Positions 35,436-43,038 of a stretch of 64,000 nt of DNA are shown in pieces; the first letter of the stretch is position 1; each line of letters opens with the position of its first letter. The notes beneath the pieces are model-generated. The model did not search any database, was not told the DNA's origin, and saw nothing but the letters and a program-made list of their open reading frames with translations. A program made the position numbers and the translations under genes. The DNA is from Holophagaceae bacterium (GTDB lineage Bacteria; Acidobacteriota; Holophagae; Holophagales; Holophagaceae): assembly GCA_021286765.1 (NCBI GenBank), contig JAJTBS010000001.1:1-64000 (forward strand), in the 5' to 3' direction.

Positions 35436-35514
35436 GGCAAAAGCATACAATGGTTAGGATTTCGGAACCTGCTGGTGGTGATACCATCGCTTCACCCCAA
35501 TCTGGAGGCAGCCA

Positions 35515-37362
35515 GTGGTCAGCAAGCTCGGGGAAATGCTCGTCAAGGCCCAGCTCATCACGGATGCCCAGCTGGATGAGGTCATGAAAATCCAGCGCCG
35601 GGAGGGCGGCAAGCTCGGGAGCATCGTCGTGCGCTCTGGCTTCTGTTCGGATCAGGACATCGTGAGCTTCCTGGGCATGCAGTATGGCGTCCCGGCCGCG
35701 GACCTGGAGCAGTGGCCACCCATCGACGCGGGTGTCATCGCCCTGATCCCCAAGGACCTGGCCCAGCGCCACAAGGTGCTGCCCCTCCAGCGCACCGGGA
35801 ACGTCCTGACCCTGGCCATGTCCGATCCCACGGACATCTTCGCCATGGATGATGTCCGCTTCCATACGGGTTACAACGTGGATCCGGTGGTTTCCAGCGA
35901 GATGGGCCTGGCCCGGGCCGTGGAGAAGTACTACGGGGGCAACAGCGCCATCCGCCTGGCGGACGGTACCAAGGCCCGCGGCGGCCAGGGCGGCCATGGC
36001 GGGAGTGGTCCCCAGGCCAGCGGCCCCACCGACACGGACGCAGGCCAGCCCTATAGCGAAGAGGATGAACACTTCGACCTGTCGGAACTGGAGCAGGAAC
36101 TCGATGCCGATGCCGAGTTTGATGCCACCGAGGACGACGACAGCAGCGTCAATGTCGGCAGCCTGAAGCGGGGCAGCGAGGACGCTCCGGTCGTGAAGCT
36201 CGTGAACATGGTGCTCATCGATGCCATCAAGCGGGGCGCCTCCGACATCCACATCGAGCCCTACGAAAAGACCTACCGCATCCGGTTCCGCATCGACGGC
36301 ATCCTGATGGAGGTGATGCGGCCCAACCTCAAGCTGAAGGATCCGCTGACCTCCCGCGTGAAGATCCTGGCCAAGCTCAACATCGCCGAGCGGCGCCTGC
36401 CCCAGGACGGCCGCATCAAGCTGCGCGTCAACATGCAAGGCAAGCAGAAGGTCATCGACTACCGCGTGAGCATCCTGCCCACCCTCTTCGGCGAGAAGAT
36501 CGTGCTGCGGCTGCTGGACAGCGACAAGCTCATGCTGGACCTCACCAAACTGGGCTTCGAGCCGGAGAGCCTTGAGCGCTGGGACCGCCAGATCTCCAAG
36601 CCCTACGGCATGGTGTTGGTGACCGGCCCCACAGGCTCCGGCAAGACCAACACCTTGTACTCCTCCATCGCCAAGCTCAATACGGTCGACACGAACATCA
36701 TGACGGCGGAGGATCCGGTCGAGTTCAACTTCCCGGGCATCAACCAGGTGCAGATGAAGGAACAGATCGGCCTGAACTTCGCGGCTGCCCTGCGCTCCTT
36801 CCTCCGGCAGGATCCCAACATCATCCTGGTGGGCGAAATCCGCGACTTCGAAACGGCCGAGATCGCCATCAAGGCCAGCCTCACGGGCCACCTGGTGCTC
36901 TCCACCCTGCACACGAACGACGCTCCCAGCACCATCAACCGCCTCATGAACATGGGCGTGGAGCCGTTTCTGGTGGCCACCTCCGTGAACATCATCTGCG
37001 CCCAGCGCCTGGTGCGCCGACTCTGCGCCAACTGCAAGATGGTGGACACCCATCACCAGCCGGAGGAGGCCCTCTACAAGGTGGGCTTCACGCCCGAGGA
37101 AGTGCAGAAGGGCATCACCTTCTACAAGCCGGTGGGCTGTGAGACCTGTAACAAGCGCGGATACAAGGGCCGCGTGGGCCTCTACGAAGTCCTGGAGATG
37201 TCCGAAACCCTCAAGGACATGATCCTCACGGGCGCCTCGGCCATCGAGATCCGGGAGCAGGGGCAGAAGGAGGGCATGATCACCCTCCGCCGCTCCGGGT
37301 GCCGCAAGGTCCTCGATGGGGTCACCACCATTGAAGAGATCATCCGAGAGACCGTGCTTTAG
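35515..37362 (+). CDS. pilB: Type IV pilus extension ATPase PilB
   Basis: 615 residues, GTG start at 35515 after CTGGAGG. The N-terminal domain is MshEN-like (KLGEMLVKAQLITDAQL ... KLGSIVVRSG), a fold that binds c-di-GMP in several PilB/MshE proteins. An acidic linker (about 150-205) precedes the GspE ATPase core with Walker A GPTGSGKT (near 371-378), Asp/Walker B boxes (LVGEIRDFETAEIA) and a tetracysteine zinc motif (CANCK ... CETCNKRGYKGR). It polymerises pilin. Next to pilT, pilC and pilA in an operon. Confidence 0.95.
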   Translation: MVSKLGEMLVKAQLITDAQLDEVMKIQRREGGKLGSIVVRSGFCSDQDIVSFLGMQYGVPAADLEQWPPIDAGVIALIPKDLAQRHKVLPLQRTGNVLTLAMSDPTDIFAMDDVRFHTGYNVDPVVSSEMGLARAVEKYYGGNSAIRLADGTKARGGQGGHGGSGPQASGPTDTDAGQPYSEEDEHFDLSELEQELDADAEFDATEDDDSSVNVGSLKRGSEDAPVVKLVNMVLIDAIKRGASDIHIEPYEKTYRIRFRIDGILMEVMRPNLKLKDPLTSRVKILAKLNIAERRLPQDGRIKLRVNMQGKQKVIDYRVSILPTLFGEKIVLRLLDSDKLMLDLTKLGFEPESLERWDRQISKPYGMVLVTGPTGSGKTNTLYSSIAKLNTVDTNIMTAEDPVEFNFPGINQVQMKEQIGLNFAAALRSFLRQDPNIILVGEIRDFETAEIAIKASLTGHLVLSTLHTNDAPSTINRLMNMGVEPFLVATSVNIICAQRLVRRLCANCKMVDTHHQPEEALYKVGFTPEEVQKGITFYKPVGCETCNKRGYKGRVGLYEVLEMSETLKDMILTGASAIEIREQGQKEGMITLRRSGCRKVLDGVTTIEEIIRETVL

Positions 37363-37374
37363 GCGAGGTGATTC

Positions 37375-38559
37375 ATGAGTGAAGTCGGCGCCAACTATGT
37401 TGCCCCGCTCCAACAGCTGCTGAAGACGATGGTGGAATATGGGGGGACGGACCTCCATATCACGACGGAATCAGCCCCCCAGATCCGCATCGATGGCCGC
37501 ATGGTGCCCCTCAAGCTGCCGCCCATGGATGCCTCCCAGACCCGCTGGCTCTGCTATGGCGTGATGACGGACCAGCAGAAGCACCGCCTTGAGGAAGATT
37601 TCGAGGTGGACTTCTCCTTCGGCTTGCAGGGCGTGGCCCGCTTCCGCGCCAACGTGTTCAATCAGCGCGGCGCCACCGCCGGGGTGTTCCGAACCATTCC
37701 TGAGCAGATCCGGAGCTTTGATCAGCTGGGGCTGCCGCCCTCCATCCAGGCTCTGACCAGCAAACCCCGGGGCCTGGTTCTGGTGACGGGGGTGACGGGG
37801 TCTGGGAAGTCCACGACCCTGGCCGCCATGGTGGACAAGATCAACACCGAGGAACCGCTCCACATCCTCACCATCGAGGATCCGGTGGAATACGTCCACA
37901 AGCACAAGCGGGCCCTGGTGAACCAGCGTGAGATCCATGCCGACACCCACAGCTTCAAGAAGGCGCTTCGTTCGGCCCTGCGCCAGGACCCCGACGTGGT
38001 GCTGGTGGGTGAAATGCGCGATCTGGAGACCATCGAATCCGCGCTGACCATCGCCGAGACGGGCCACCTGACCTTCGGCACCCTGCACACCAGCAGCACT
38101 GTGCAGACCATCAACCGCATCATCGACGTGTTCCCCAGCCACCAGCAGCCGCAGATTCGCGCGCAGCTTTCCCTGGTGCTGGAAGGCGTCATCTGCCAGA
38201 GCCTTATTCCCAAGGCCAGCGGGAAGGGCCGGGCCCTGGCCCTGGAGATCATGATCCCCAACTCCGCCATCCGGAACCTCATCCGGGAGGACAAGATCCA
38301 TCAGATCTACGGCGTCATGCAGTCAGGGCAGGCGAAATTCGGCATGCAAACCTTCAATCAGAGCCTGTCGGACCTGGTGATCCGCAAGGAAATCAGCCAG
38401 GAGCAGGCCTTCGACTATTCCTCCAACACCGATGAACTGCGCGAGCTCATCAATCGCGGAGTTGGTGTTGGGGCCGCCGGCGGGCGAAGTTCCGCGGCTC
38501 CCAGCCAGTCCGCCAGCGCGGTCCTGGGCGGGCGGAACCCCAACATCAAGTACACCTAG
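37375..38559 (+). CDS. pilT: Type IV pilus retraction ATPase PilT
   Basis: 394 residues. Walker A is GVTGSGKS, the Asp box LHILTIEDPVEYVH, Walker B VLVGEMRDLETIESAL, His box TGHLTFGTLHT. The PilT-specific AIRNLIRE element is present (NSAIRNLIREDKIHQ), distinguishing it from PilB. A ~35-residue Gly/Ser/Ala tail extends the C terminus beyond the usual ~350-residue length. It powers pilus retraction for twitching and DNA uptake. It begins 12 bases after pilB. Confidence 0.95.
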   Translation: MSEVGANYVAPLQQLLKTMVEYGGTDLHITTESAPQIRIDGRMVPLKLPPMDASQTRWLCYGVMTDQQKHRLEEDFEVDFSFGLQGVARFRANVFNQRGATAGVFRTIPEQIRSFDQLGLPPSIQALTSKPRGLVLVTGVTGSGKSTTLAAMVDKINTEEPLHILTIEDPVEYVHKHKRALVNQREIHADTHSFKKALRSALRQDPDVVLVGEMRDLETIESALTIAETGHLTFGTLHTSSTVQTINRIIDVFPSHQQPQIRAQLSLVLEGVICQSLIPKASGKGRALALEIMIPNSAIRNLIREDKIHQIYGVMQSGQAKFGMQTFNQSLSDLVIRKEISQEQAFDYSSNTDELRELINRGVGVGAAGGRSSAAPSQSASAVLGGRNPNIKYT

Positions 38560-38629: not shown

Positions 38630-39832
38630 ATGCCCGCTTATGCTTGGAAAGGCAAGAACCGAATGGGAGAAGTCCAGGAAGGCGTCCTGGTCTCTGATTC
38701 CCGTGATTCCGCCGCGACCACCTTGAAGCGCAACGGCATCGAAGTCATGAACATAAGAGTCATGGCCGCCGAGGGGGGCAAGTCCCTTGGCAAAGTCCCG
38801 CCCAAGGCGCTGGCCATCTTCACCCGGCAGTTCAGCGTGATGATCGACGCCGGCCTGCCCTTGGTGCAGTGCCTTGAAATTCTCGGCGCCCAGCAAGATC
38901 ACAAAGGCTTCCAGCGCATCATCGAATCCGTGCGGGACGATGTTGAGAAGGGTTCCACCCTCCAGGCGGCCCTGTCCAAGCACCCCAAGGCCTTCAACGA
39001 CCTCTTCGTGAACATGGTCGGTGCCGGCGAAAGCGGCGGCATCCTGGACATCATCCTGCAGCGGTTGTCGGGCTATATCGAGAAATCCGTGAAGCTGACC
39101 GCCAAGGTCAAAAGCGCCATGACCTACCCCGTTGCCATCATCAGCATCGCCATCATCGTGGTGATCGTGATCATGGTGAAGGTGATCCCCGTCTTCTCCG
39201 CGATGTATTCGGGCCTGGGCAGCAAGCTGCCCTATCCAACCCAGGTCTGCATCGCCATGTCCGATGCCATCATCAATTATTGGTGGCTGCTCCTTGGAGC
39301 CCTGGTCCTGATCGTGGTTGGTCTCAAGCAGTACTACAAGATTCCCGCGGGCCACCTCCAGATCGACACGCTCCTGCTGCATGTGCCTGTCCTGGGACAG
39401 GTGCTCCGCAAGGTGGCCGTGGCCCGATTCTGCCGGACCCTCGGAACCCTCATCAGCTCTGGCGTTCCCATCCTGGAGGGCATGGACATCACGGCCAAGA
39501 CCGCGGGGAACCTGGTCATCCAGAACGCCATCCTCAAGTCCAAGGATGCGGTGGAACAGGGACGCAACATCTCAACCCCTTTGGCGGAGACCAAGGTCTT
39601 TCCCCCCATGGTGGTCCAGATGGTGGGTGTCGGCGAGGCCACGGGCGCCTTGGATGCCATGCTGGCCAAGGTGGCCGACTTCTACGAAGACGAGGTGGAC
39701 AATGCCGTGGCCAGCCTCACCAGCCTCATGGAACCGATCATGATCTCCGTGCTGGGTGGCATCGTGGGCTTCATCGTAGTGGCCATGTACATGCCGATCT
39801 TCGGCCTTGCGGCTGCCTTCGACAAGAGCTGA
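38630..39832 (+). CDS. pilC: Type IV pilus inner-membrane platform protein PilC
   Basis: 400 residues with the duplicated T2SSF/GspF domain. Each half is helical and ends in membrane helices (VAIISIAIIVVIVIMV; WWLLLGALVLIVVG; VLGGIVGFIVVAMYMPIF). Recognised motifs include FTRQFSVMIDAGLPLVQCLE and GTLISSGVPILEGMDITAKT. It couples PilB/PilT rotation to pilin insertion or removal. A 70-base gap separates it from pilT, and the pilA promoter-like element begins 9 bases past its stop codon. Confidence 0.95.
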   Translation: MPAYAWKGKNRMGEVQEGVLVSDSRDSAATTLKRNGIEVMNIRVMAAEGGKSLGKVPPKALAIFTRQFSVMIDAGLPLVQCLEILGAQQDHKGFQRIIESVRDDVEKGSTLQAALSKHPKAFNDLFVNMVGAGESGGILDIILQRLSGYIEKSVKLTAKVKSAMTYPVAIISIAIIVVIVIMVKVIPVFSAMYSGLGSKLPYPTQVCIAMSDAIINYWWLLLGALVLIVVGLKQYYKIPAGHLQIDTLLLHVPVLGQVLRKVAVARFCRTLGTLISSGVPILEGMDITAKTAGNLVIQNAILKSKDAVEQGRNISTPLAETKVFPPMVVQMVGVGEATGALDAMLAKVADFYEDEVDNAVASLTSLMEPIMISVLGGIVGFIVVAMYMPIFGLAAAFDKS

Positions 39833-39840
39833 GGCCCGGT

Positions 39841-39856
39841 TGGCCGGTGAATTGCA
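39841..39856 (+). promoter_or_regulatory. Sigma-54-like promoter of pilA
   Basis: TGGCCGGTGAATTGCA matches TGGCACG-N4-TTGCA at 10 of 12 positions, with GG and GC at the required spacing. Transcription would begin near 39867, giving a short leader that still includes the GGGAGG ribosome site. Sigma-54 with PilR drives pilin genes in Pseudomonas and Geobacter, so the location is apt. Confidence 0.65.
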
Positions 39857-39881
39857 TCCCTTCGGGGTTCGGGAGGACACC

Positions 39882-40298
39882 ATGCGACGAGCGACGCAAG
39901 GCTTCAGCTTCATCGAAATCCTGTTGGTGGTCGTGATCATCGGCATTCTGGGTGCCATCGCCATCCCTTCCTACCTCGGCCAGAAGAAGAGTGCCGAGCT
40001 GGTGGGCGATGCCCAGCAGAACACCAAGGCCCTGCAGATGATGCTGGAGACCCGGAAGGCGGACACGGGTCTGTATGGACCGGCCGGGGCTGTCACCGTC
40101 TGGAATCCTGATGGCACGGTCAGTGGCACCAACCTGGCCCCCCTCTTCGCACCCAAAGGCTCCACGATCATGACCTACACCCTGACGGTGGACGGCACGG
40201 GCCTGGCGTACGACCTGACCATCAACGACAATCGCCCCGGGAAGGGCAACGCCAAGATCTTCCAGACGAATCAGACGGGACAGCAGCTTTACCCCTGA
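39882..40298 (+). CDS. pilA: Type IV major-type pilin PilA
   Basis: 138 residues including a short 7-residue leader MRRATQG. Prepilin peptidase should cut at G|F; mature residues begin FSFIEILLVVVIIGILGAIA with Glu5 conserved and a hydrophobic helix of ~25 residues for membrane storage and filament packing. The head domain is short (about 100 residues) with Tyr/Trp residues but no cysteine pair, so the disulfide-bonded D-loop of many pilins is missing. ATG 39882 follows GGGAGG. It follows pilC and carries its own sigma-54-like promoter. Confidence 0.93.
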   Translation: MRRATQGFSFIEILLVVVIIGILGAIAIPSYLGQKKSAELVGDAQQNTKALQMMLETRKADTGLYGPAGAVTVWNPDGTVSGTNLAPLFAPKGSTIMTYTLTVDGTGLAYDLTINDNRPGKGNAKIFQTNQTGQQLYP

Positions 40299-40552
40299 GG
40301 GATCCTCAGGCTTGATGCGCTCGGGGCGATTCCGGGAGAGGGGTGTGTCTAGATGCGTCGCTCCTTGGGCGGATTGCGTCAGGGGCGGCTGAGTTGCGAA
40401 GCCTACGGAGGTTCTTGCCTCCACTCCTGGACCTCTTCCGCTGGTGAAGCTCACTGCACTGCGGGACGGTTCCCCCCACCAACAGTGTCCGGGGCGAACT
40501 CCAGGGATGCGCCAGGTCCCCGAGTTTGTTTCTCCCCGGAATGAGGGTACAT
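40299..40552. other. Intergenic region after pilA, no gene seen
   Basis: About 250 bases between pilA and the convergent terminator hairpin. Short open frames here lack ribosome sites and family character. A 7-bp inverted repeat CCTGAGG-GAT-CCTCAGG (40297-40313) overlaps the pilA stop and may be a weak 3' hairpin. I see no promoter pair or repeat. Confidence 0.5.
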
Positions 40553-40584
40553 GCGAACCCCCGCCTAGGCGGGGGTTCGCTTTT
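40553..40584 (+). terminator. Terminator between convergent pilin genes
   Basis: A perfect 13-bp stem (GCGAACCCCCGCC and its complement) with a 2-nt loop, followed on the plus strand by TTTT. It lies 14 bases past the stop of the minus-strand pilin gene and 250 bases past pilA, so it can end transcripts from both sides, better for plus-strand ones because the T tract is on that side. Confidence 0.8.
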
Positions 40585-40598
40585 GACGAGTCGACCGA

Positions 40599-41048
40599 CT
40601 ACTCGACCGGCACCTGGGCCAGCTGCGTGACCGCGCCATTGCCCGCCGCCCCGGACTTGAGATGCTTGTAGGTCACGATGACCACGTTGTGCGCATCGCC
40701 ATTGATGTCGTTCTGGGTGGCAGCCAGCACACCGACATCCCCATCGGCGACCGCATTGCCCGCTACCAGGGCCGTGGTGGTGTTGGTGTAAGCGTTCTTG
40801 CAGTTGGGGTAGACGAAGTTCGGCAGGGCCGTGACATAAGCGATGACGGCGGCCGGCGTGGGGTTGTTCATGAGCTTGGCGGAGGAGGCGATCTCGGAGG
40901 CCACGGCCTGGGCGGTGGCTTCCGTGGCCTTCTGCTTCGCACGATCGCGCTGGCCCAGCAGGGCCGGGATGGCGATGGCGGAGATGATGCCGATGATGGC
41001 TAGCACGAGCAGCAGCTCGATGAGGGTGAAACCGGATTGACGCTTCAT
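40599..41048 (-). CDS. Type IV pilin-like protein
   Basis: 149 residues. Leader MKRQSG is followed by FTLIELLLVLAIIGIISAIA, a perfect class III signal with Glu5. The head domain (about 110 residues) includes PNFVYPNCKNAYTN and a single cysteine. It is clearly paralogous to the pilin at 41184 (shared ALPN(F/Y)xYPN(C/A)KN motif and helix), less so to PilA. A sigma-54-like promoter lies about 50-65 bases upstream of the start codon. Confidence 0.9.
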   Translation of the reverse strand: MKRQSGFTLIELLLVLAIIGIISAIAIPALLGQRDRAKQKATEATAQAVASEIASSAKLMNNPTPAAVIAYVTALPNFVYPNCKNAYTNTTTALVAGNAVADGDVGVLAATQNDINGDAHNVVIVTYKHLKSGAAGNGAVTQLAQVPVE

Positions 41049-41095
41049 GGTGTGGCCTCCAGGATTTGGGTCGCACTTGGCGAGATCAATTAGTC

Positions 41096-41111
41096 AGCAA
41101 TGCTCATGCCG
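41096..41111 (-). promoter_or_regulatory. Sigma-54-like promoter of the 40599 pilin gene
   Basis: On the minus strand CGGCATGAGCATTGCT matches TGGCACG-N4-TTGCT at 10 of 12 positions, with GG and GC exactly spaced. It is placed between the upstream pilin's terminator and the start codon at 41048, so this gene has an independent promoter. Confidence 0.65.
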
Positions 41112-41134
41112 ATGATGCCGGGCAGGTCGACAAA

Positions 41135-41162
41135 CAAAAACCCCCGGGGGTGAACCCGGGGG
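41135..41162 (-). terminator. Terminator of the 41184 pilin gene
   Basis: Read on the minus strand, an 8-bp stem CCCCCGGG/CCCGGGGG with a short TTCACC loop is followed by TTTTTGTTT, about 22 bases after the stop codon. It separates the two tandem minus-strand pilin genes into independent transcripts. Confidence 0.85.
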
Positions 41163-41183
41163 CTGGAGTGTCTAACCTTTGGG

Positions 41184-41639
41184 CTAGTCGAGGGCCACAA
41201 CCTTGGTGCTGGTGACGTTGGCACCGTTCTCGATGTAGATGCCGGTGATGGTGATGGCGGGATAGGTCCGGCCAGCCTCGGTGACCGTGCCGGCAGCGAG
41301 ACCGACTTCACCAGGGGCCGCGGCGGCGGCGTTCTTGTAGGGGGTAACCGCACCACCATAGGGGTTCTTGGCGTTGGGGTAGGCATAGTTCGGGAGGGCG
41401 ATGACGGCGGCGACGGTATCGGCGGCCACGGTAGCGGCGGTCGAAGTGCCATTGTCCTTCAGGGTGTCGCCGAGGCGGGCGCACTCACCAGCGGCGCTGG
41501 CAATCATGGCCTGCACGGCCTTGACCTTGGCGCGCTCGCGCTGGCCCAGCAGGGCAGGCACAGCGATGGCAGCGATGATGCCGATGATGGCAAGCACGAG
41601 CAGCAGTTCGATGAGGGTGAAGCCCTTCTGGTTCTTCAT
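41184..41639 (-). CDS. Type IV pilin-like protein
   Basis: 151 residues. Leader MKNQKG, then FTLIELLLVLAIIGIIAAIA with Glu5. The head domain holds ALPNYAYPNAKNPYGG, aligned with ALPNFVYPNCKNAY of the neighbouring pilin, and one cysteine (ECARLG). Ribosome site AGGAG is 8 bases before the ATG. It has its own sigma-54-like promoter and terminator. Together with PilA it gives three independently controlled pilins beside the assembly genes; which is the major subunit cannot be told from sequence. Confidence 0.9.
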   Translation of the reverse strand: MKNQKGFTLIELLLVLAIIGIIAAIAVPALLGQRERAKVKAVQAMIASAAGECARLGDTLKDNGTSTAATVAADTVAAVIALPNYAYPNAKNPYGGAVTPYKNAAAAAPGEVGLAAGTVTEAGRTYPAITITGIYIENGANVTSTKVVALD

Positions 41640-41677
41640 GGGTGTTCTCCTAGTGGGCGATGGCCGCGAGACAAGAT

Positions 41678-41693
41678 ATCAATCCTTGTGCCA
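41678..41693 (-). promoter_or_regulatory. Sigma-54-like promoter of the 41184 pilin gene
   Basis: On the minus strand TGGCACAAGGATTGAT matches the -24 box TGGCAC exactly and most of the -12 box (TTGAT for TTGCA/T) at the correct 16-base overall span. The start codon lies 38 bases downstream. The substitution of the -12 C is the weakest point. Confidence 0.55.
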
Positions 41694-41958
41694 ACACGCC
41701 AGACATGGAAGAAAACCATATGTTTCAAGAAGCCGTAGTGGACCGCACGCTTTTGGGAGGCCCGGGTGGTCCGGCGGAAGGGCAGGTGACTGACGCAGAA
41801 GGGCAGTCTCATGGCTCTGTTGCGTCAATTGGATTCAGCTGAGGTCTGAATCCTGAATTCACCGGAATTCGCAGGCGTCCCCTCGGATCCGCCGCATAAC
41901 CCCAAGGATCGAGGTCGGACCCGTAGGGTGATGCTCCATCCAGACGGTGTACCTGTTC
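41694..41958. other. Intergenic region between pilin and TPR genes
   Basis: About 265 bases without a convincing gene; a 60-codon frame on the plus strand has no ribosome site. It contains a perfect 8-bp hairpin GGATTCAG/CTGAATCC (41831-41853), about 105 bases past the TPR gene's stop, and paired GAATTC sites (41855-41870). A PilR/activator binding site for the sigma-54-like promoter would be expected here, but I cannot identify one. Confidence 0.5.
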
Positions 41959-43038
41959 TTAAGCCCGTTTCAGCAATTCCATTAGCTCCCTGGCTCCTCG
42001 GTGCCGCGGATCGAGCTTGAGCGCCTCCTGCGCCGCGTGCTGAGCTTCCTCCCTGTGCCCGAGGCCCAGAAGGATCTGACCCTTGCGCCACCAGGCGCTG
42101 GGGTACCCGCCGGAGCCGCCTTCCAGGGGCTCGCGCAGGACCTGATCCAGGGCCAGCAGGCCCTCCGGGCGGTGCAGGCCGCTGGCGGCCGCCACCTTGC
42201 CGAGTTGCAGGCGCAGCAGGCTGGGGGCATCGACTTGGCCGAGGTGCTCCTGGATGACTTTCCAGGCCGTCTCCGGTTGGCCGGCGTGGAGGTAGGCGTC
42301 GCTGACCGCCACCACCCCCCGGGCGTGCGTGCGCACGCCCGGGAGCAGACGGGTCGCCTCGGCCAGGAGGCGGGCGTTCTTGCCCGCCTCGCCCAGGGCA
42401 CGCTTGGCGGGTTTGCGGTCGAGGGCATCCAGCCACTGACCCACCACTTCGGGATCCTGGGGAGCCTTGGCCAGGGCGCGTCCGAACCAGGACTCCGCCT
42501 CCCGCCACTGGTTCTCCTCCAGGAGAATGAGCGCCTGCAGCAGGTCGCCCCGGGCCGGGGCGATGGCGCGCAGGCGATCAGCGCACTGGATGGCCTTGCG
42601 GGTGGATCCGCCGAGCAGCCCGGGCAGCATCTCGTAGGCCAGGCCCAGGCTGGTCCAGGCCGGGGCCAGCGTGGGATCGGCCACCGTGGCGGCGCGCAGG
42701 TCATCCATGGCGCCGAGGGCGCTGCGCAGGGCGCCGAAGTCGCGCTGCTTGATGGCCTCCCCGGCCCGCGCCAGGCCACGGGCCAGGAGGGCATCCGCCA
42801 GATCGGGCTTCAGGGACACCGCGCGCTCGGCCGCGGAGAGCGCCTCCCCGAACCGCAGGAGGCTGGAGAGGGCCTGGGACTTGGCGGCCCAGGCGAGGGC
42901 CTCGTCCGGATGTTCGCGAAGGCGCCGCTCGGACTCGGCCAGCACCTTGAGGTAGCGTCCCGCCTCCAGGTCGGCGCGGAAGGCGGGGGCCTGGGCCTGG
43001 AGTATCGAAAGGAAGACGACAGGTGCGATGCGGATCAC
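41959..43038 (-). CDS. Exported TPR-repeat protein
   Basis: About 359 residues using GTG 43038, which gives a signal peptide (IRIAPVVFLSILQAQA|P); an ATG 11 codons upstream would spoil it. Repeated helical pairs of the TPR type are evident (ALAWAAKSQALSSLLRFGEA; ADALLARGLARAG; APAWTSLGLAYEML; SAWWRKGQILLGLGHREEA). TPR proteins are scaffolds; a pilus or envelope assembly role is possible given the pilin neighbours but not demonstrable. Divergent from fabI, with about 160 bases between. Confidence 0.78.
   Translation of the reverse strand: MIRIAPVVFLSILQAQAPAFRADLEAGRYLKVLAESERRLREHPDEALAWAAKSQALSSLLRFGEALSAAERAVSLKPDLADALLARGLARAGEAIKQRDFGALRSALGAMDDLRAATVADPTLAPAWTSLGLAYEMLPGLLGGSTRKAIQCADRLRAIAPARGDLLQALILLEENQWREAESWFGRALAKAPQDPEVVGQWLDALDRKPAKRALGEAGKNARLLAEATRLLPGVRTHARGVVAVSDAYLHAGQPETAWKVIQEHLGQVDAPSLLRLQLGKVAAASGLHRPEGLLALDQVLREPLEGGSGGYPSAWWRKGQILLGLGHREEAQHAAQEALKLDPRHRGARELMELLKRA

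Follow-up and report, generated by a model that had tools for sequence, protein, structure and literature searches.

Predicted sigma-54-type promoters before pilin genes of Geothrix, with a conserved GA at -12

Three pilin genes in a stretch of 64,000 nucleotides from a Holophagaceae bacterium (positions 1 to 64,000 of contig JAJTBS010000001.1, assembly GCA_021286765.1; the window in what follows) are each preceded by an element resembling the -24/-12 promoters of sigma-54 (RpoN), and their assignment as sigma-54-type promoters is well supported by the presence of rpoN and of sigma-54-activator domains in the genome and by conservation across the genus. The element of the first major pilin, at 41678, is classed as a variant of the sigma-54 kind: its -12 doublet is GA, a change that is conserved and occurs at many other promoters of the genus. 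This genus is Geothrix (Acidobacteriota), which NCBI taxonomy places within the Holophagaceae, Acidobacteriota; family f1 of our sample is taken to be this family, and the genome holding the window measures 3.15 Mb. What the sequence shows directly is the sites and how well they are conserved, together with the GA class, the substitutions in RpoN and the placement of a paired upstream site. The model we favour, in which sigma-54 would drive the pilins, an upstream activator would be shared and the sigma-54 of the family would have been altered to accept GA, has as a whole a probability of roughly two in three.

Three promoter elements at the pilin locus

The canonical sigma-54 consensus reads TGGCACG-N4-TTGCW. 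The initial annotation of the window had proposed three elements of this form, and their sequences were confirmed on the strands and at the positions claimed:

39841..39856, plus strand: predicted sigma-54-type promoter of pilA, TGGCCGG-TGAA-TTGCA (sequence match, conservation)
41096..41111, minus strand: predicted sigma-54-type promoter of the second pilin, CGGCATG-AGCA-TTGCT (sequence match; the same 16 bases occur in genome G031)
41678..41693, minus strand: predicted sigma-54-type promoter of the first major pilin, TGGCACA-AGGA-TTGAT (GA for GC at -12; GA class shared by other Geothrix pilins)

The accompanying tally, which gave two elements 10 of 12 matching positions and credited the third with a perfect -24 box, needs a small correction: all three match 10 of 12 (two mismatches each). 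The GG doublet of a TGGCAC-like box at -24 is present at all three sites; in other genomes, second pilins with TGACACG and pilA genes with NCGCACG deviate there. The GC doublet at -12 is present at 39841 and 41096, and at 41678 its C is one of the two mismatches, the doublet being GA; this element is thus a sigma-54-like variant and not a member of the consensus. Counted from the second letter of the -12 doublet, the start codons follow at 27 (39841), 49 (41096) and 40 bases (41678), inside the 20-60 bases that had been claimed.

Counting motifs in the window alone proved uninformative and was abandoned: at up to three mismatches the consensus is found 77 times, with 106 expected from shuffles, so that as such it is not enriched, and three of the seven matches with two mismatches are the pilin sites. 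The evidence is therefore carried by position and conservation. A consensus scan of 39700-42000 gave no sigma-70-like promoter (0.4 expected). The TGG-N10-GC upstream of pilB (35476..35491, plus strand), a weak site and at most a possible promoter, keeps its GG and GC letters in three of three readable upstream regions (G000, G016, G017), with a low score and never as the best-scoring site.

Conservation across Geothrix

Pilin upstream regions were scored with a hand-written weight matrix based on the canonical consensus, with -12 left neutral; a site had to lie 20-60 bases before the start and to reach a score of at least 9. This score is reached by 51 of 59 Geothrix major-type pilins, as against 1.4% of random sequences and 6 of 354 other starts in the same loci, these control starts being those of mechanically called open reading frames that have a ribosome-binding site rather than those of curated genes; conservation in relatives, which the initial annotation had named as a check, is thus borne out across the genus. 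The -12 doublet of the 51 sites is GA in 38, GC in 12 and GT in one, and the conserved element of the major pilins reads TGGCAY-N5-TTGAT.

Column conservation computed from sequences chosen by the pattern was discarded, because selection inflates the values of the boxes; it was replaced by a test anchored on TGGCAC or TGGCAT alone, which covers 40 of the 59 major pilins (38 distinct sequences) and leaves the remaining letters unselected. After this anchor the -12 letters are TTGA in 34, CTGA in two, TTGT in one and TTCC in one, giving A in 36 of 38. The columns of the -12 box hold 1.60-2.00 bits, those of the spacer 0.43-1.13 and the seven columns beyond 0.10-0.57; the major-pilin sites thus combine a fixed spacing between the boxes with a less conserved spacer.

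At pilA the -24 box is weaker; the best sites read TTGC in 33 of 35 cases, and a score of 9 or more is reached by 13 of the 35. Eight of the 35 upstream regions have the form TGGC-N7-TTGCW and 21 the form GCACG-N4-TTGCW. When the best sites of pilins and pilA are taken together, 94 in all, TGGCAC joined with TTGC occurs at none. The two boxes trade off in these sequences: a perfect -24 box goes with GA and a weaker one with GC.

GA at -12 throughout the genus

In 47 Geothrix genomes the base following TGGCACR-N4-TTG is A at 112 matches and C at three (reversed-pattern control 13), G at 34 and T at four (reversed-pattern control 49). Among the contexts fetched, to which the following tally applies, 91 are distinct; 62 of them lie upstream of eight gene families, and every one of these is GA:

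29 contexts: major pilins
9 contexts: a lipoprotein family without a Pfam match
6 contexts: a 4Fe-4S protein
6 contexts: lipoproteins with DUF5666 and, just short of its cut-off, a DUF4382 match
5 contexts: DUF4402 proteins
3 contexts: a PapD-like chaperone
3 contexts: a Met-rich secreted protein
1 context: an HlyD-type protein

A further 23 contexts have no gene-family assignment (20 GA, three GC), and the remaining six are antisense to a conserved coding start, which from its first residues we take to be that of an mglA-like gene. In several of the eight families the start codon lies 60-160 bases from the GA element, as against 30-50. The named families consist for the most part of envelope or secreted proteins, which are expected targets of sigma-54 regulons (PMC3162934). 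In the loci read from G014 and G037, two neighbouring GA promoters stand some 1.7 kb from each other ahead of DUF4402 genes, and the gene of a PapD-like chaperone has a leader resembling theirs; the arrangement suggests a fimbrial locus under sigma-54 whose leader is conserved.

A paired site upstream of the first pilin

Upstream of the 41678 element lies an inverted pair that may serve as an enhancer:

41791..41827, no strand assigned: putative enhancer (activator site), TGACGCA-N23-TGCGTCA, lying 98-134 bases ahead of the first base of the promoter element

Its general form is [TG]GACGC[AG] followed by [TC]GCGTCA, 29-30 bases from start to start and 184-197 bases before the start codon. The exact pair precedes 17 of 39 first major pilins and at least one half precedes 29 of the 39; none of the 20 later pilins and none of the 35 pilA genes has the pair or a half of it between 120 and 220 bases before the start codon, and the pair occurs in 0 of 7800 shuffled upstream regions. 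The number of major-type pilins in the 38 Geothrix genomes that have them is one in 24, two in nine, three in three and four in two. The placement of the pair suggests one putative enhancer per locus, serving one to four tandem major-type pilins. A single activator for all GA promoters was considered and rejected, the other GA genes listed having no exact pair and single halves in 6 of 20; since half-sites are mostly absent before these genes, the GA doublet does not mark the targets of a single regulator.

About 30 kb from the pilins, outside the window, a response regulator (C4:71804-73258) combines a receiver with a sigma-54-activator domain that has a GAFTGA loop. The next gene after this NtrC-type regulator carries a prepilin motif (C4:71804-73856 for the two together), and the regulator is a candidate for control of the pilins; no NCBIfam model gives it the name PilR, and no histidine kinase is found among the three genes upstream of it (two glycosyltransferases and a DUF1573 protein), kinases elsewhere not having been searched for.

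RpoN and its activators

An rpoN gene, which the initial annotation had proposed to look for, is present in one copy, its product scoring above the curated cut-off of TIGR02395, and the sigma-54-activator domain is matched 17 times in the genome, strongly in 12 cases and weakly in five. The loop contacting region I of sigma-54 reads GAFTGA in six of the strong domains, GAFTDA in three, and GAYTDA, GSFTGA and GAFSGA in one each. RpoN is 69-77% identical to that of Geothrix in the rest of the family and 34-42% in other families of the class; three small genomes of family genus g5 (0.9-1.2 Mb; G216, G238, G239) have no RpoN match.

In an alignment of 43 sequences from the family (30 Geothrix, 13 others) with 19 outsiders, S335D, M376F, Y389T and A459N (Klebsiella numbering) are present in 43 of 43 family sequences and in none of the 19 outsiders. 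S335D lies in the extra-long helix, M376F and Y389T around the recognition helix and A459N in the RpoN box, so that S335D, Y389T and A459N fall in all three DNA-reading elements of the protein. In the solved closed complex (PMC9770992), R455 and R456 read the -24 element and H377, S379 and R383 the -12 GC, while S335 holds the flipped-out base neighbouring that GC. The link between these substitutions and the GA promoters is a correlation.

Weighing the explanations

From the above we infer sigma-54 dependence, activator binding, sharing of the enhancer and compensation between the boxes, in the following way. RNA polymerase with sigma-54 would transcribe each of the three pilins from its own -24/-12 promoter; an NtrC-type activator would bind the paired site and open the promoter of the first major pilin, and could possibly open those of the later pilins by looping. 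The sigma-54 of the family would have changed to accept GA, with a perfect -24 box usually meeting GA instead of GC; the strong TGGCAC anchor would compensate for the lost contact to the C, and the extra A:T pair beside the start of melting would ease opening, while promoters having a weaker -24 box would keep GC.

The narrower proposal contained in this model, that the sigma-54 of the Holophagaceae was re-tuned by coordinated S335D, M376F, Y389T and A459N and its -12 reading shifted from GC towards GA, is put forward tentatively. In the phylum sample TGGCACG is followed by GA 20 times and by GC twice in 14 Geothrix genomes, as against 196 GA and 513 GC in 181 genomes outside the family (Fisher odds ratio 26, the related genomes not being independent). 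GA pilin promoters are present in three further genera of the family (G194, G154, G242, G262), and in a set of 20 scoring pilin upstream regions, one of which is that of G154, the 19 from outside the family have GC in 13 cases and GA in one. Of the other families of the class, f2 gives 13 GA and 36 GC (control 6).

A number of observations weigh against the favoured model or parts of it. In RpoN, the GC-reading residues H377, S379 and R383 are conserved in the family and the altered residues lie beside them; position 335 varies among the outsiders too (N, Q, H, Y, K), S occurring in none of the 19; and between residues 311 and 475 there are at least ten family-specific positions, so that the three named in the DNA-reading elements are picks from a generally divergent protein. 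On the side of the promoters, the 112 GA matches are not independent, coming from 47 species of one genus with 29 of the contexts being pilins, and 15 of them share one string, which in the six read is antisense to the conserved coding start. The other genera of the family show a weaker excess (26 GA and 13 GC, control 16; 24 of 30 genomes examined), and class family f3 shows no signal (23 GA and 24 GC, control 30). Outside the family both doublets exceed their reversed-pattern controls in the 181 genomes (GA 196 against 48, GC 513 against 164); this control is thus imperfect and GA may be used elsewhere, and GA at -12 appears not to be unique to Geothrix. GC is also kept at the pilA best sites and at the 12 scoring major-type sites noted above, and before lpxC in 26 of 27 readable upstream regions (f2 and f3 7/7, Geothrix 12/12, other family members 7/8; 29 loci, of which G262, for its frame, and G245, which has no upstream, were unreadable, and with fragment L365 excluded). 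Finally, the pattern of the paired site was written from the very sequences on which it was tested.

The GC at lpxC rules out an absolute switch from GC to GA, and its retention there, at pilA and at some major-type pilins means that GC recognition is not lost; the Geothrix lpxC site reads T[GA]GCT, with the preceding letter changed. In most of the class genomes read, a sigma-54-like site lies 16-28 bases before the start of lpxC (68 in G259, for which a start further downstream was taken), and this element would place lipid A synthesis under sigma-54.

These points lend some weight to the view that the promoters are ordinary sigma-54 promoters which drifted to a tolerated weaker base at -12, with sigma-54 reading DNA just as in other bacteria and the RpoN substitutions being neutral lineage markers. 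Such drift would fit the unchanged GC-reading residues, the continued use of GC at lpxC, pilA and some second pilins, the occurrence of GA outside the family, and the imperfect pilin sites found in other phyla too (for example GTGCT in Pseudomonas). It would not account for a nearly fixed A in place of scatter, as seen both after the TGGCAY anchor and genus-wide (112 matches with A, three with C and four with T, the GA contexts spanning eight gene families), for the lack of TGGCAC with TTGC at the 94 best sites, or for the predominance of GC at pilins outside the family, and we consider it unlikely.

The initial annotation had suggested that the three pilins are individually switched; on this view a separate activator input would act at the sigma-54 promoter of each. 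Every pilin does have a predicted promoter of its own, the three differ in sequence class, and the terminator said to separate the two minus-strand pilins is there, as a hairpin at 41139-41164 on the minus strand. The putative enhancer, found before the first minus-strand pilin and with not even one half at the later pilins or at pilA (sites of other sequence were not searched for), leaves individual switching unsupported: one putative activator site for several tandem pilins fits it poorly, and we regard it as improbable.

A last possibility is that a different sigma factor uses the GA elements, or a different regulator binds them, and that they only look like sigma-54 sites. It would fit the loss of a letter taken to be near-invariant, yet is very improbable: the elements keep TGGCA and TTGA within the 16-base layout, around a spacer that is less conserved, have an enhancer-like pair at a usual enhancer distance, precede the pilin and envelope genes expected of sigma-54 (PMC3162934), and at the pilin locus stand where the consensus scan of 39700-42000 gave no sigma-70-like promoter.

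The pilin locus and its neighbourhood

The three pilins were identified by their prepilin methylation motif and adjoin pilB-, pilT- and pilC-type genes:

35515..37362, plus strand: pilB-type assembly ATPase
37375..38559, plus strand: pilT-type ATPase
38630..39832, plus strand: pilC-type platform protein
39882..40298, plus strand: pilA-like pilin, directly after pilC
40599..41048, minus strand: second major-type pilin
41139..41164, minus strand: intrinsic-terminator-like hairpin between the two minus-strand pilins (terminator scan)
41184..41639, minus strand: first (distal) major-type pilin, MKNQKGFTLIELLL...

The genes of pilA and the second pilin are convergent, and in the gap separating them an inverted repeat rich in GC (gcgaacccccgcctaggcgggggttcgc, 40552-40580) was spotted by eye; it is missing from the list of the terminator scan.

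Significance and comparison with known systems

Sigma-54 promoters across bacteria have the form TGGCAC-N5-TTGCW, and gene-finding for sigma-54 regulons leans on the GC at -12. If the family uses GA, standard searches would overlook promoters of its pilin, fimbrial, lipoprotein and respiratory genes; and if the re-tuning is real, it would be a natural case of evolving promoter specificity in a sigma factor usually taken to be almost invariant. The fixed substitutions in RpoN, one of them at the residue which grips the first base to melt, would amount to a natural experiment on the evolution of promoter reading and on how far binding strength can be traded against ease of melting. The paired site offers a concrete handle on the regulator and on whether one enhancer drives several tandem pilin promoters. 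As Geothrix is an iron-reducing genus, the control of its pilins is of practical interest too. A literature search returned no paper joining the Holophagaceae with sigma-54; the classic promoter compilations lay outside its reach, so that GA at -12 may already be reported.

Sigma-54-dependent pilin promoters controlled by PilR occur in Pseudomonas and Geobacter. In outline, the Geothrix locus is like these in having a -24/-12 promoter shortly before the pilin start, a candidate enhancer-like site upstream, and rpoN together with NtrC-type regulators; it is unlike them in the GA at -12 of its main pilin, in a candidate regulator with no kinase among the three genes on its upstream side, and in the presence of one to four major-type pilins per genome with one paired site. 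With the canonical TGGCACG-N4-TTGCW the Geothrix elements share the -24 box and the spacing, whereas the canonical form itself is rare in the genus, TGGCACR followed by TTGCW making up 3 of 115 matches in the 47 genomes. The sigma-54 of Klebsiella (7qv9_M and relatives) shares the contact residues H377, S379, R383, R455 and R456 with the RpoN of the family, and differs from it at the four positions where all 43 family sequences carry S335D, M376F, Y389T and A459N.

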